A stretch of DNA of 24,864 bases, taken from IMG/VR virus record IMGVR_UViG_3300027746_000567, positions 1 through 24,864 of that record, one strand, 5' to 3'. Source of the stretch: a virus. The translations under genes were made by a program, and so were the position numbers. The notes beneath the pieces were generated by a model. That model was not told the DNA's origin. It searched no databases and saw only the letters and a program-made list of their open reading frames with translations. This document shows positions 9,488 through 13,606 of this stretch, piece after piece. Every line of letters starts with the position of its first letter. The stretch's first letter is position 1.

Positions 9488-10933
9488 TTATTTAAGGGCC
9501 ACGCTTTGCGCCCGTTGCTCTGCAATTCGTTGTAAAATAGCAGTTTGATTTTGCGACTCTGAAAGCACCTTTGCCATCACTGGCACAACGGGTTCTTGTC
9601 GGATATTTGTCTGCGTTGGATTTGCCAACAATCCTGCGTTAAATACTGCCCCATAAGTGCTTTTGCCAGTGTCTAGAGCGCCGTTAATCAATGCGGTTGA
9701 AGGCATTGTTACTGGTTTAAGCGTTGGCAGGACTTGCTCAAGTTCTTTTTTCCCTTTTACTTCAGCCGCTAAACCTTGCCGGGTCATTTTACCAACGGAC
9801 TCGTCCGAAACTAACTGACGAAAAACAATAGAATCAGCTCGCATTGCTGCGATTACGTTTGCCAGCCCCACTTGAAATTTGCCAATAAACAAATCAGCCA
9901 ACCCAGACAACGCTATTTTAAGCGACTCTGCAAACGCCATTCCAGCATCAAGTAAGTTGCTTTTAAGTTCTGCAACGTAAGCTTTTAACGCACCAACAAG
10001 TTCGCCTGATTTCATCGCCTCGGCAACGCCGCCAAATGCTGCGCCAATTTTTACCCCGGCGCTCGCAAGATCGAGGTCGATTAGACTCTGCACAATGTCT
10101 ACCACTGGTGCTAGTGCCGGGTGTACCTTTCCAAATTCGGCAACTATTTCGCTGAGTCCTTTTTTTGGACCTTCAATTAGCGATAAAATTTCAGGAGCAA
10201 ATCCCGCTGCGACTCCCACAAAGAAGCCTTGCAGCTTGGTCTTGGCCATCGCAACAACGTCCATCAGCGTCGATCCGCTTAAGCCCATGATCGTGGTAAT
10301 CCGAGCAAACATGCCAGACGCTCTTTCGAGGATAATTGCTTGATCTCCAAGCGCCTTGCTTGCGCCCGCAAACGTGGTCGGATTCATCGCCGCCACCATG
10401 CGCTCACCACTTGCGCCAAAAATAGAAACAGCGGTTTGCGTTTTTTCGAGGCCGTTGTGCAGCCCACCAAATGCGGCAGTGATTGTGTCCACCTGCTTTG
10501 CCGTGCTCATTTTGCTCAACGCATCGGCAGACAAACCAAGCTTAGAAAACGCAACCGTGGCGCTCTCAGAGCCTCCTACAGCCGATTTGATCGAGTCTTG
10601 CATGGACTTAATCATCGGTCCTGCGTCCTCCGAGCTGCCTCCCACCATACGCAATGCTTCGCCCAGTGTCTGCATTTGTCGGACGGTTAACCCGGCCTTG
10701 TAGGATGTCTCTTGCAGTGTGTTGCCGAGAGAAATTGCAGATCGAACGCCCTGCACAAATGCGACGCCAGCAGCAATCACAGCCGCTGTTGCGGTAAGTG
10801 CCGCAGCTTTTAAGCGGTTCATCCCCTCGACCTCTCCAACGGCTCCTTTGAACTGTTGCACGGCTACGGTTGCATTTGACAATCCGAGGACAAAGCGACT
10901 TGCGTCTAAGGCCAATTCAGCGGTTGCACTCAT
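9488..10933 (-). CDS. Tail tape measure protein (481 aa)
   Basis: The protein is long, mainly alpha-helical, and rich in Ala, Gly, Leu and Lys. It has a hydrophobic segment near the N-terminus (AALTATAAVIAAGVAFVQGV, about residues 43-64) and another mid-protein (LQGFFVGVAAGFAPEILSLI), as usual for tape measures that enter the membrane during DNA ejection. The start MSATAELALDASRFVLGLSN is the typical opening of this family. It lies directly after the chaperone region and one gene. At roughly 0.15 nm per residue it predicts a tail near 70 nm, short for a siphovirus. The start overlaps the upstream gene by ATGA and has GGAG eight bases upstream, one of the few good ribosome-binding sites here. 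Confidence 0.9.
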   Translation of the reverse strand: MSATAELALDASRFVLGLSNATVAVQQFKGAVGEVEGMNRLKAAALTATAAVIAAGVAFVQGVRSAISLGNTLQETSYKAGLTVRQMQTLGEALRMVGGSSEDAGPMIKSMQDSIKSAVGGSESATVAFSKLGLSADALSKMSTAKQVDTITAAFGGLHNGLEKTQTAVSIFGASGERMVAAMNPTTFAGASKALGDQAIILERASGMFARITTIMGLSGSTLMDVVAMAKTKLQGFFVGVAAGFAPEILSLIEGPKKGLSEIVAEFGKVHPALAPVVDIVQSLIDLDLASAGVKIGAAFGGVAEAMKSGELVGALKAYVAELKSNLLDAGMAFAESLKIALSGLADLFIGKFQVGLANVIAAMRADSIVFRQLVSDESVGKMTRQGLAAEVKGKKELEQVLPTLKPVTMPSTALINGALDTGKSTYGAVFNAGLLANPTQTNIRQEPVVPVMAKVLSESQNQTAILQRIAEQRAQSVALK

Positions 10934-11598
10934 TTTTTAATCTCCTTATTTAACAATTCTTGCGCTTTTGCTTGTGCCGCTTTTTCAAGTCGAAATGTAG
11001 CCCGACGTTGAGCGTAACGAATCGCTTTTTCCATGTCGGCCATGTTGCCCGCGTATCGGACGCCATTCGTGGCTTTCATCGAAAAATATTGTCCGTCGTT
11101 ACGCTCGGAAAATGAACCAGGCGCTGACTTATTAACCCATCCTGGCACTGTTTGTCCCAATCGACTTGAAGCAGCGTTCCAACCCGCCTGTAAATATCCA
11201 ACGCGAGAATGCAGCATCGCTTCAATCTTCTTGAACGATTGCAATGTAACTGCCATTTTGACAGTCGTCCTTGGCCTGCCATTTGATCCGCGAATTGATT
11301 GATACCACGAGTAAGCGCGGTCTGTGTTTGTGGCAAGCTTTGACGATGGAGCAACTACTTTGAAGGCCTTCAGTAAATCAATCGTGATTGCCATCCGTCC
11401 TTTGCGATACGATAGACTTCCAACAGTTTCGCCGCTAGCTGGAGGGGTAACACTGCGGACGTCTCTCAAAAACGTCAGGAATGACATTGAAAGCGCGGAG
11501 GGAAGCCCAACGCCTGTTGCAAGTCCCACGCCCACGCGCTTGATGGTATCGACGCCCCATTTGGCTTCTGCTTCAGAAATATCAAATTGGATATTCAT
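10930..11598 (-). CDS. Tail protein between chaperone and tape measure, unrecognised (222 aa)
   Basis: The start is ATG 11598 (MNIQFDISEAEAKWGVDTIK), which overlaps the end of the frameshifted chaperone frame by 17 bases. The protein is basic, with a helical Lys/Ala-rich C-terminus (AAQAKAQELLNKEIKK) and a central basic region (RPRTTVKMAVTLQSFKKIEA). No enzyme motif is seen. Proteins here may be tail completion, minor tail or tape-measure helper proteins. Its coupling to both neighbours suggests it is needed in tail-core assembly. Confidence 0.8.
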   Translation of the reverse strand: MNIQFDISEAEAKWGVDTIKRVGVGLATGVGLPSALSMSFLTFLRDVRSVTPPASGETVGSLSYRKGRMAITIDLLKAFKVVAPSSKLATNTDRAYSWYQSIRGSNGRPRTTVKMAVTLQSFKKIEAMLHSRVGYLQAGWNAASSRLGQTVPGWVNKSAPGSFSERNDGQYFSMKATNGVRYAGNMADMEKAIRYAQRRATFRLEKAAQAKAQELLNKEIKK

Positions 11599-12159
11599 CG
11601 TCAAGATTTGTGGGAATTTGACCTAGCAACTCAGCAATAGTTTTTGATGCGTTAGGTGATTTCTTTGTCGTCCAAATTCCGCGTTTCCAAAGCATTGCGT
11701 GCCAATATCGCAGCGCCCGAGCTAGTGGCATTCGTCTTAAAATGTGATCTTCGCTCCATCCTGTTTCTGAGGCCAAATTGAGCACCAAATTCTCAACCCA
11801 ATCCGGCCCAATTAGTTTGGGGGCGCGTTTATATCTATGCTTGGACCTTGTTCAATAATGTCGACCTTGGCATCCTCTTGCATTTCTTGCTGGTTCATGG
11901 CCCAGTTTTTGGCTTTCACCATGAGCGAAAAAGGAAGTGTGCGGACAAAGCTTTTAATCTGGCCCTCGGCGATTTTGTCTGCAACTGCCTGCTCAACGTC
12001 CTCGACGGGTTGCGCGGCCATCCAAACCATTGCCAAAAGCGTTTCAAGATCGCTGCACTGTAAATTTAACTCAGCCAGATTTATGCAATCCTGCGCTACA
12101 AAATTGCGCAACGTGAGCGGCCCGAGTTGCGTAGTTGAACTAATGAATGGGTTTTTCAT
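11582..12159 (-). CDS. Tail assembly chaperone fusion (G-T type), made by -1 frameshift, 192 aa
   Basis: Reading frame 0 from 12159 to the slippery CCCAAAC (11821-11815) and then stepping back one base fuses the 115-aa G-like protein to 77 further residues. The tail begins LIGPDWVENLVLNLASETGW and contains RRMPLARALRYWHAML, the helix typical of the T part of tail chaperones. The T frame has no good start of its own near the junction. The fusion would bind the tape measure through T while G binds tube subunits, as shown for lambda gpG/gpGT. A short stem begins six bases after the slippery site. Frame logic, gene order and sequence all agree; only the efficiency is unknown. Confidence 0.85.
11771..11821 (-). 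promoter_or_regulatory. Programmed -1 ribosomal frameshift signal
   Basis: On the minus strand the codons GCG CCC CCA AAC TAA contain C CCA AAC, which fits X XXY YYZ exactly (11821-11815). The stop follows at once. After a six-base spacer (TAATTG) comes a nested stem: GGCC (11808-11805) with GGCC (11774-11771) outside, and TTGAG (11796-11792) with CTCAA (11782-11778) inside. The shifted frame continues 77 codons with chaperone-like sequence. Stem pairing is read by eye and is only 4+5 pairs. Confidence 0.83.
11812..12159 (-). CDS. Tail assembly chaperone, short form (G type), 115 aa
   Basis: The frame-0 product stops at TAA directly after the slippery site. It opens with a short beta segment (ISSTTQLGPLTLRNFVAQD) and continues with acidic helices (LNLQCSDLETLLAMVWMAAQ, EDVEQAVADKIAE). 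A mainly helical acidic protein just before the tape measure region fits the lambda gpG class, made in excess over the fusion. Its start overlaps the preceding gene by ATGA. The C-terminus (SIDINAPPN) is constrained by the slippery codons. Confidence 0.85.
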   Translation of the reverse strand: MKNPFISSTTQLGPLTLRNFVAQDCINLAELNLQCSDLETLLAMVWMAAQPVEDVEQAVADKIAEGQIKSFVRTLPFSLMVKAKNWAMNQQEMQEDAKVDIIEQGPSIDINAPPN

Positions 12160-12587
12160 ACAAGCCGTGCAGCATCCTGTTTAAGCCATTCTGGGGAGTG
12201 ATCGTAGACAACAGCGGTTGTCAGCCCTTTGCGCAACCTGATGCCAGTAGCCATCTCGTGCGCTTGCCGTTTCATATCTCGAGAGTTATCCCGAAATGCA
12301 CGCATAACAGCCACAGGATGCCACTCGTTAGCCTGGCACCACGCAAGCGAGTTCCACGCTTTCTGAAACTCCTCAAACGTCATCTTTCCGTCTGGAAACA
12401 CGATTGGCTCCGTCCCGTCATAAACCCATGTGGCGTAGGGCTTACCTGCCTCCATGACCTTCTCAAGTTGAGGCGTACCAAATGCGCCACCCAGGCTGTG
12501 CCAAGCCGCTGCCATATCCGTGTTGGGCGAGCGGCGAACGTCGTCGTGGTCAATGACAACGTGATAAGTGTTTCCCTGCTTTATCAT
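12156..12587 (-). CDS. Tail region protein, unrecognised (143 aa)
   Basis: This soluble 143-residue protein has Trp/His-rich stretches (MAAAWHSLGGAFG, AWNSLAWCQANEWHPVAVMR) and a basic C-terminal third (RDNSRDMKRQAHEMATGIRL). There is no membrane segment. It lies between the tube-like genes and the chaperone and overlaps the chaperone start by ATGA, so its expression is tied to tail assembly. I do not recognise a family. Confidence 0.78.
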   Translation of the reverse strand: MIKQGNTYHVVIDHDDVRRSPNTDMAAAWHSLGGAFGTPQLEKVMEAGKPYATWVYDGTEPIVFPDGKMTFEEFQKAWNSLAWCQANEWHPVAVMRAFRDNSRDMKRQAHEMATGIRLRKGLTTAVVYDHSPEWLKQDAARLV

Positions 12588-12607: not shown

Positions 12608-12919
12608 CTAAGACGCTGACGGGTAACTAATTCCAGAAGCTTCCCATGCGTTAAAGTCATCGTTTTTGGTTGATGCAGTAACTTTTGTTACAAACGCTTT
12701 GCCCGTTGCTAGAGCAAGTCCAAGATTACCAATGCCTGTTGAGTATGGATTTGTACCACGGCCTTTTGCAGAAAATTCAAACGTGCTATCGTATGTTTTG
12801 GTTTGAGATTGTTCGCCCAGCGAATTAATTAGCCGTTTAAATTCGGCTTTGTGAGTAAGGTCTACAGACTCAACAATGCCGCCGCCCCCGGTGATTAAAG
12901 TAACTCCAAATGTTGCCAT
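12608..12919 (-). CDS. Tail tube-like protein B (103 aa)
   Basis: The start is ATG 12919 (MATFGVTLITGGGGIVESVD), five bases after the preceding stop. The 103-residue beta-rich protein ends in a segment with KNDDFNAWEASG. It shares with its neighbour a short MA-TFG opening, size and a NDDF motif near the C-terminus, so the two look like diverged duplicates. Its position between the tail terminator and the chaperone is where the major tail tube protein is expected. Which of the two is the tube is unclear. Confidence 0.76.
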   Translation of the reverse strand: MATFGVTLITGGGGIVESVDLTHKAEFKRLINSLGEQSQTKTYDSTFEFSAKGRGTNPYSTGIGNLGLALATGKAFVTKVTASTKNDDFNAWEASGISYPSAS

Positions 12920-12924
12920 AAAAA

Positions 12925-13224
12925 TTATTCGTGGAGGGTGTAGGTTGCGCTTGAAGTGCTGAAATCGTCGTTTGTCTGTGCAAGGCCTGCCTCTGTGCAT
13001 GTTGCTCCGCTGAAATTGCCTGATGGCACCGTAACAAGAACTGCATCAGATTTGGTTTTTACCGTGGTCTTTGTTTCAGACCTTGGTTTTGCCTGCGCAA
13101 CAATTACTTGCCCGTTTTCATTGCGAATGGTCGCAATTTCAATGGTCTTTTCTTGCGAGGACTCTTGCAAGTATCCGCTGGGTGGTGTTACGCCGAATGC
13201 GTCGGCTCCGAATGTAATAGCCAT
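12925..13224 (-). CDS. Tail tube-like protein A (99 aa)
   Basis: The start is ATG 13224 (MAITFGADAFGVTPPSGYLQ), preferred to an in-frame earlier codon because it follows the previous stop directly and matches the opening of the next protein. It is beta-rich with alternating Thr/Val/Lys (KTTVKTKSDAVLVTVPSGNF) and ends with TNDDFSTSSATYTLHE. The leader is AT-rich (CTAATTTT) with no Shine-Dalgarno sequence. It is a candidate major tail tube or tube-cap protein; the assignment rests on gene order and fold-like pattern. Confidence 0.76.
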   Translation of the reverse strand: MAITFGADAFGVTPPSGYLQESSQEKTIEIATIRNENGQVIVAQAKPRSETKTTVKTKSDAVLVTVPSGNFSGATCTEAGLAQTNDDFSTSSATYTLHE

Positions 13225-13228
13225 AAAA

Positions 13229-13606
13229 TTAGATAGGTGAGAAACCAACTATGTATTGAAGAGGAGTTTGCCAGTGTCGCTCGGCGTGCGCGGAGTCGTC
13301 AGATACCGCCACAATACCAGCGAGCTGCACGACCGTGGATGTGATTGAAATGGTGCGCATAAACGTATCCACAGCCGCCACAAACTCAATGTGATCCGCC
13401 GGGGTCGTGTCGTCGGCCTGCGAAACTGCGGTGACCGTCAACTGCCCGCGCCCAAGCGGAGAGCCCACAACGGAGTCGGAACGTAGCTGCAACAAAATGG
13501 CTGGCGATGTCACGCGCTCGTTGTCCTGCGGTTCGCCGACGTAGATGTCGGGAAACTCCAGCTTGAGCGCGTCTGCGATTGCTGCCGCTAAAATGCCGCC
13601 GATCAT
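13229..13606 (-). CDS. Tail terminator/completion protein candidate (125 aa)
   Basis: The start is ATG 13606 (MIGGILAAAIADALKLEFPD), overlapping the upstream stop by ATGA. The pattern is an N-terminal helix, a GEPQDNERVTSPAILLQL strand with RGQLTVTAVSQADD, and a helix VDTFMRTIS, then strands. This alpha-beta order of about 120-130 residues is usual for siphovirus tail terminators that cap the tube and join it to the head. It sits between the neck proteins and the tube-like genes, as expected. Confidence 0.78.
   Translation of the reverse strand: MIGGILAAAIADALKLEFPDIYVGEPQDNERVTSPAILLQLRSDSVVGSPLGRGQLTVTAVSQADDTTPADHIEFVAAVDTFMRTISITSTVVQLAGIVAVSDDSAHAERHWQTPLQYIVGFSPI

Follow-up and report, generated by a model that had tools for sequence, protein, structure and literature searches.

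Origin and layout of the locus

This locus raises the question of whether the 77 codons that lie open in the -1 frame behind a 115-aa gene, upstream of a tape measure gene, belong to a tail assembly chaperone and are reached by ribosomal frameshifting. The locus is part of a virus record of 24,864 bases, which was analysed as a whole and is called the window here. The 3′ end of the 115-aa gene reads GCG CCC CCA AAC TAA (protein end ...NAPPN*), and the -1 frame is open from the last base of the heptamer C CCA AAC to a stop at 11582-11584, confirming the heptamer, the adjacent stop and the 77-codon frame described by an earlier reading of the letters alone (the sequence-only reading). Translation of the -1 frame gives LIGPDWVENLVLNL...DDEYPI (77 aa), and the predicted fusion of the two parts, termed G and T, would comprise ~192 aa with the junction ...NAPPN-LIGPDW.... 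A Shine-Dalgarno-like stimulator was also searched for upstream (20 nt upstream of the slip site), where the best matches to AGGAGG reached just 3-5 of 6.

The chaperone genes are all on the minus strand, on which head genes are followed by small tail genes, G/T, a ~222-aa gene and the tape measure gene (Table 1). The head genes are lambda-like and include a gpA-type terminase, a lambda-family portal and an S49 protease, as well as weak matches to a P22-type coat protein and a head-tail attachment protein. The tape measure protein also matches Pfam TMP_2 with E 9.3e-6, just under the cut-off. The ATG of the ~222-aa gene overlaps the end of T, and its product found no family match, though its position is conserved in relatives. 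Family matches were likewise absent for a 143-aa gene directly upstream of G (12156-12587, minus strand), whose relatives share 28-97% identity, and for two adjacent minus-strand ORFs of ~100 aa with similar starts (MAITFG... and MATFGV...; 12608-13248), which lie where the major tail protein is expected. A search of bacterial and archaeal genomes found no relatives of G/T.

Table 1 Position of the chaperone genes, the recoding elements and the neighbouring genes in the window
Feature	Position	Strand	Evidence
G-type ORF, short form of the tail assembly chaperone (zero frame), 115 aa	11812..12159	-	ORF; homologs in 30 distinct G/T pairs
Slippery heptamer C CCA AAC	11815..11821	-	XXXAAAC in 62/65 distinct homologous sites, XXX = CCC, AAA or GGG
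Zero-frame stop TAA, directly 3′ of the heptamer	11812..11814	-	Adjacent stop in 48/65 distinct sites
Putative stimulatory hairpin, arms 11796-11809 and 11770-11783, 12-nt loop, 5-nt spacer	11770..11809	-	MFE, covariation, selection beyond amino-acid constraint
-1 frame T-type extension, 77 aa	11582..11815	-	Reading frame, homologs, invariant L1/P4, match to Mica extension
Gene of ~222 aa between T and the tape measure gene	10930..11598	-	ORF; same-position homologs in relatives
Tape measure protein, 481 aa, presumed chaperone client	9488..10933	-	PHROG tape measure, E 1.4e-11

Conservation of the -1 relation and the slip site

Among 45 viral loci retrieved with the coat protein, a T homolog was present in 32, and in each it lay -1 relative to a G-like ORF. 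When the T alignment served as query, 80 loci with 59 distinct sites were retrieved, and again every homolog with enough sequence has T in the -1 frame of G. Both searches combined give 65 distinct homologous sites, all with the same relation.

The heptamers at these sites are GGGAAAC (31), AAAAAAC (16), CCCAAAC (15) and GGGGGAA (3). At all 62 XXXAAAC sites, the preceding codon, nearly always one for Pro, ends in the base that also fills the first two positions of the codon after it. On a tree from which the heptamer columns were left out, the letter X switches at least four times, and each exchange of the triplet alters the encoded residue (Pro, Lys or Gly) with AAAC kept. Slipperiness is therefore conserved while the sequence is not, because the X triplet switches yet its three bases stay identical, and this comparative pattern is the strongest single argument for the predicted tandem -1 slippage.

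The sequence-only reading had taken the adjacent stop to mean that a long form is made only by slippage. The stop directly follows the heptamer in 48 of the 65 distinct sites, and in others it lies several codons downstream (e.g. L005, L021 and L025). Judged from this distribution, an adjacent stop is typical but dispensable and no part of the mechanism.

Two further observations were made among the relatives. Seven loci, representing three distinct sites (L082, L088 and L096), carry CCG GGG GAA instead of XXXAAAC, with the stop one codon later; their downstream hairpin is weak, yet T is still in the -1 frame. In L005, L006, L008 and L029, the coat protein is 94-96% identical to that of the window and the chaperones are very different (T ~41%), suggesting head-tail module exchange.

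A hairpin downstream of the slip site

The sequence-only reading had placed a nested stem six bases behind the heptamer. A stem is indeed predicted there, with an MFE of -19.7 kcal/mol (z -4.09 against dinucleotide shuffles); instead of being nested, it forms a single hairpin that begins 5 nt after the heptamer and has 14 near-continuous pairs, several of them G-U. Across relatives, a 10-bp core is paired in 86.8% of cells (25 distinct sequences), compared with 22-46% in slid controls; this percentage also exceeds all shuffles, and the covariation score of the core was reached in 0 of 500 shuffles and in none of the slid controls. The inner TTGAG/CTCAA helix of the earlier proposal pairs in only 48.8% of cells and was abandoned.

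As the bases of the hairpin are also codons of T, its folding energy was set against that of synonymous recodings, which leave the protein unchanged. The mean z of the MFE was -3.51 for 25 sites; for 59 sites it was -3.37, with control stretches at -0.34, +0.90 and -0.41. Selection for a hairpin at the 5-nt spacing was seen with CCC, AAA and GGG heptamers alike. By these comparisons, the putative stimulatory hairpin is under selection of its own, beyond amino-acid constraint. A downstream stimulatory RNA structure is common, though not universal, in the G/GT frameshift class. In L075 and L076, GGGAAAC persists but the hairpin is gone (z about +1.3 relative to synonymous recodings). In addition, the 48 nt just past the hairpin (T codons 17-32 in relatives) fold less than their recodings do (mean z +0.9 to +1.1), a pattern that would fit avoidance of structure in this stretch.

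Constraint on T and alternative explanations

Rather than being an extension of G, T might be a separate gene with its own start, or be translated by re-initiation after the TAA, the overlap of frames reflecting ordinary operon compaction. A TTG at T codon 10 could serve as such a start (position 11788, ORF 11582-11788), and T codon 10 is the first start codon in 22 of the 65 distinct sites. However, the residues L1 and P4 of T, directly after the shift site, are invariant and precede codon 10, no start position is common to most relatives, and 10 of the 65 T frames contain no ATG. Independent initiation fails because the conserved residues of T begin at the shift site, before any start codon shared among the 65 distinct sites. 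Nor would re-initiation keep a slippery heptamer through changes of its letters, or a hairpin behind it, making a separate T gene very improbable.

Even less probable is that RNA polymerase, and not the ribosome, slips to open the T frame. Transcriptional slippage is possible on a run of six A, and the AAAAAAC sites hold such a run, but CCCAAAC and GGGAAAC sites lack a long homopolymer run, and a hairpin selected at the same spacing in all three heptamer classes fits ribosomal stimulation. Finally, the heptamer might end an ordinary gene by chance, and the open frame that follows might be unrelated. This reading could draw on the in-frame XXXYYYZ heptamers present at 31 of 7640 codon positions (~0.4%) across the ORFs of the window, where they are rare and where only the heptamer under study is a CCCAAAC that abuts a stop. 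Conservation of the heptamer at 62 of 65 distinct sites, across T proteins of 29-96% identity, already refutes the chance reading, which is excluded on this comparative evidence.

Comparison of G and T with known proteins

Pfam and PHROGs scans gave no match for G or T, either singly or as alignments. In an annotated phage collection, G had no relatives and T had matches only above E 1, Burkholderia phage Mica among these. A G profile found no match among PDB sequences, and a model of G (pLDDT 76) found no significant match among PDB structures with Foldseek. The Foldseek matches of the G model include the phage N15 tail assembly protein GT in third place (prob 0.98, E 0.024), and its match to the HK97 chaperone 2ob9 is weak (Z 3.9). 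No similarity of G to lambda G, N15 G or the G part of Mica was detectable.

The model of T is of modest confidence (pLDDT 68). Its best Foldseek match is the tape measure chaperone of phage Mica (prob 1.00, E 0.24, 1.1 A over 39 columns), and the matching stretch in the Mica record (MT701586.1) is the annotated frameshift extension. With hhalign, T and this extension align with a probability of 95 and 54% identity over 26 columns, a pairwise value for a pair picked by the prior search. The sequence-only reading had called the 77-aa tail typically T-type. Membership in the lambda gpT family is unsupported, since hhalign gave a probability under 1% for both lambda gpT and N15 T, and the match to the Mica extension stands in its place. 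By analogy of position and expression mode, T is gpT-like, though outside the lambda gpT family on present evidence.

Relation to known frameshift systems

The closest known system is the lambda G/GT tail assembly chaperone with its -1 frameshift, reportedly described by Xu, Hendrix and Duda in 2004. As in lambda, overlapping frames lie shortly before the tape measure gene and would give a short and an extended form; the XXXYYYZ slip site is placed close to the 3′ end of G, and the shift is in the -1 direction. The window family differs from lambda in its heptamer, in a stop that usually follows the heptamer directly, in its strong hairpin and in the 222-aa gene that separates T from the tape measure gene, and no similarity of its proteins to lambda G or T was detectable. 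HK97, SPP1 and KL1 are known to have a gene in this interval too (PMC3483164). The -1 frameshift at lambda g-t and its wide conservation have been described together with the shift-prone C_CCA_AAG, and AAC as the second codon has been called mammalian-like rather than bacterial-like (PMC5009743). In other tailed viruses, shift sites of the forms GGGAAAC and AAAAAAC have been reported or predicted (PMC5009743; PMC3483164); for CCCAAAC in phage frameshifting, no relevant literature match was found.

In Mica, the stretch matched by T likewise begins directly after the frame change, but the tail of Mica is sheathed, its tail region is P2-like and its chaperone belongs to PF10109. Burkholderia phage KL1 resembles the window in a GGGAAAC directly before the stop (gp18/gp19) and in the extra gene that precedes the tape measure gene (PMC3483164); its slip site is a prediction in a single phage, and the likeness concerns site and gene order. 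The haloarchaeal viruses HCTV-1, -2 and -5 differ in having archaeal hosts, and CCCAAAC is not among their sites (cited in PMC5009743). In Verrucomicrobia phage P8625, the portal of which is 29% identical, no equivalent of G/T was recognisable at gp16-gp17.

Proposed mechanism and significance

Taken together, the constant -1 relation, the slippery XXXAAAC, the covarying hairpin and the place upstream of the tape measure gene strongly support the frameshift proposed by the sequence-only reading, and it is almost certain that programmed -1 ribosomal frameshifting at this locus yields a tail assembly chaperone of the G/GT type. The majority of ribosomes would read G to the TAA and release the 115-aa protein. 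In a minority, stalled by the hairpin, tRNA-Pro on CCA and tRNA-Asn on AAC would slip back one base to CCC AAA, and these ribosomes would continue for 77 codons to yield the fusion. If the roles are those known from lambda, G would coat the tape measure protein, while T, within the fusion, would recruit the tail tube protein. The analysis shows the anatomy of the sequence, the constant -1 relation, selection on heptamer and hairpin, and the gene order; we infer slippage in the cell, its efficiency and, from the lambda system, the binding roles of G and T. The points against this mechanism are that G/T belong to no described sequence family, that the T model is of modest confidence and the HK97 match weak, that three sites lack the canonical heptamer, that some kin lack the hairpin and that AAC as second codon counts as mammalian-like (PMC5009743).

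The chaperone adds a sequence-divergent member to the G/GT tail-assembly-chaperone frameshift class, whose mechanism is already known; the comparative evidence is unusually clean. Two traits are mildly unusual: AAAC is strictly fixed, and one subclade has given up the canonical heptamer. A bolder and rather doubtful reading is that of an undescribed chaperone family in which AAAC is fixed, the X triplet is free among CCC, AAA and GGG, and a G GGG GAA subclade has lost or weakened the hairpin. If this were true of the subclade, it would imply a different slip mode, perhaps with the P-site tRNA alone.

The conserved G/GT frameshift would thereby extend to uncultivated phages with chaperones outside the described sequence families, in which automated annotation would miss the T extension or call it a stray ORF. 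Moreover, this chaperone family is a natural experiment in which three heptamers are interchanged under one second codon and one hairpin, so that the relative slip rates of the three could be compared directly.
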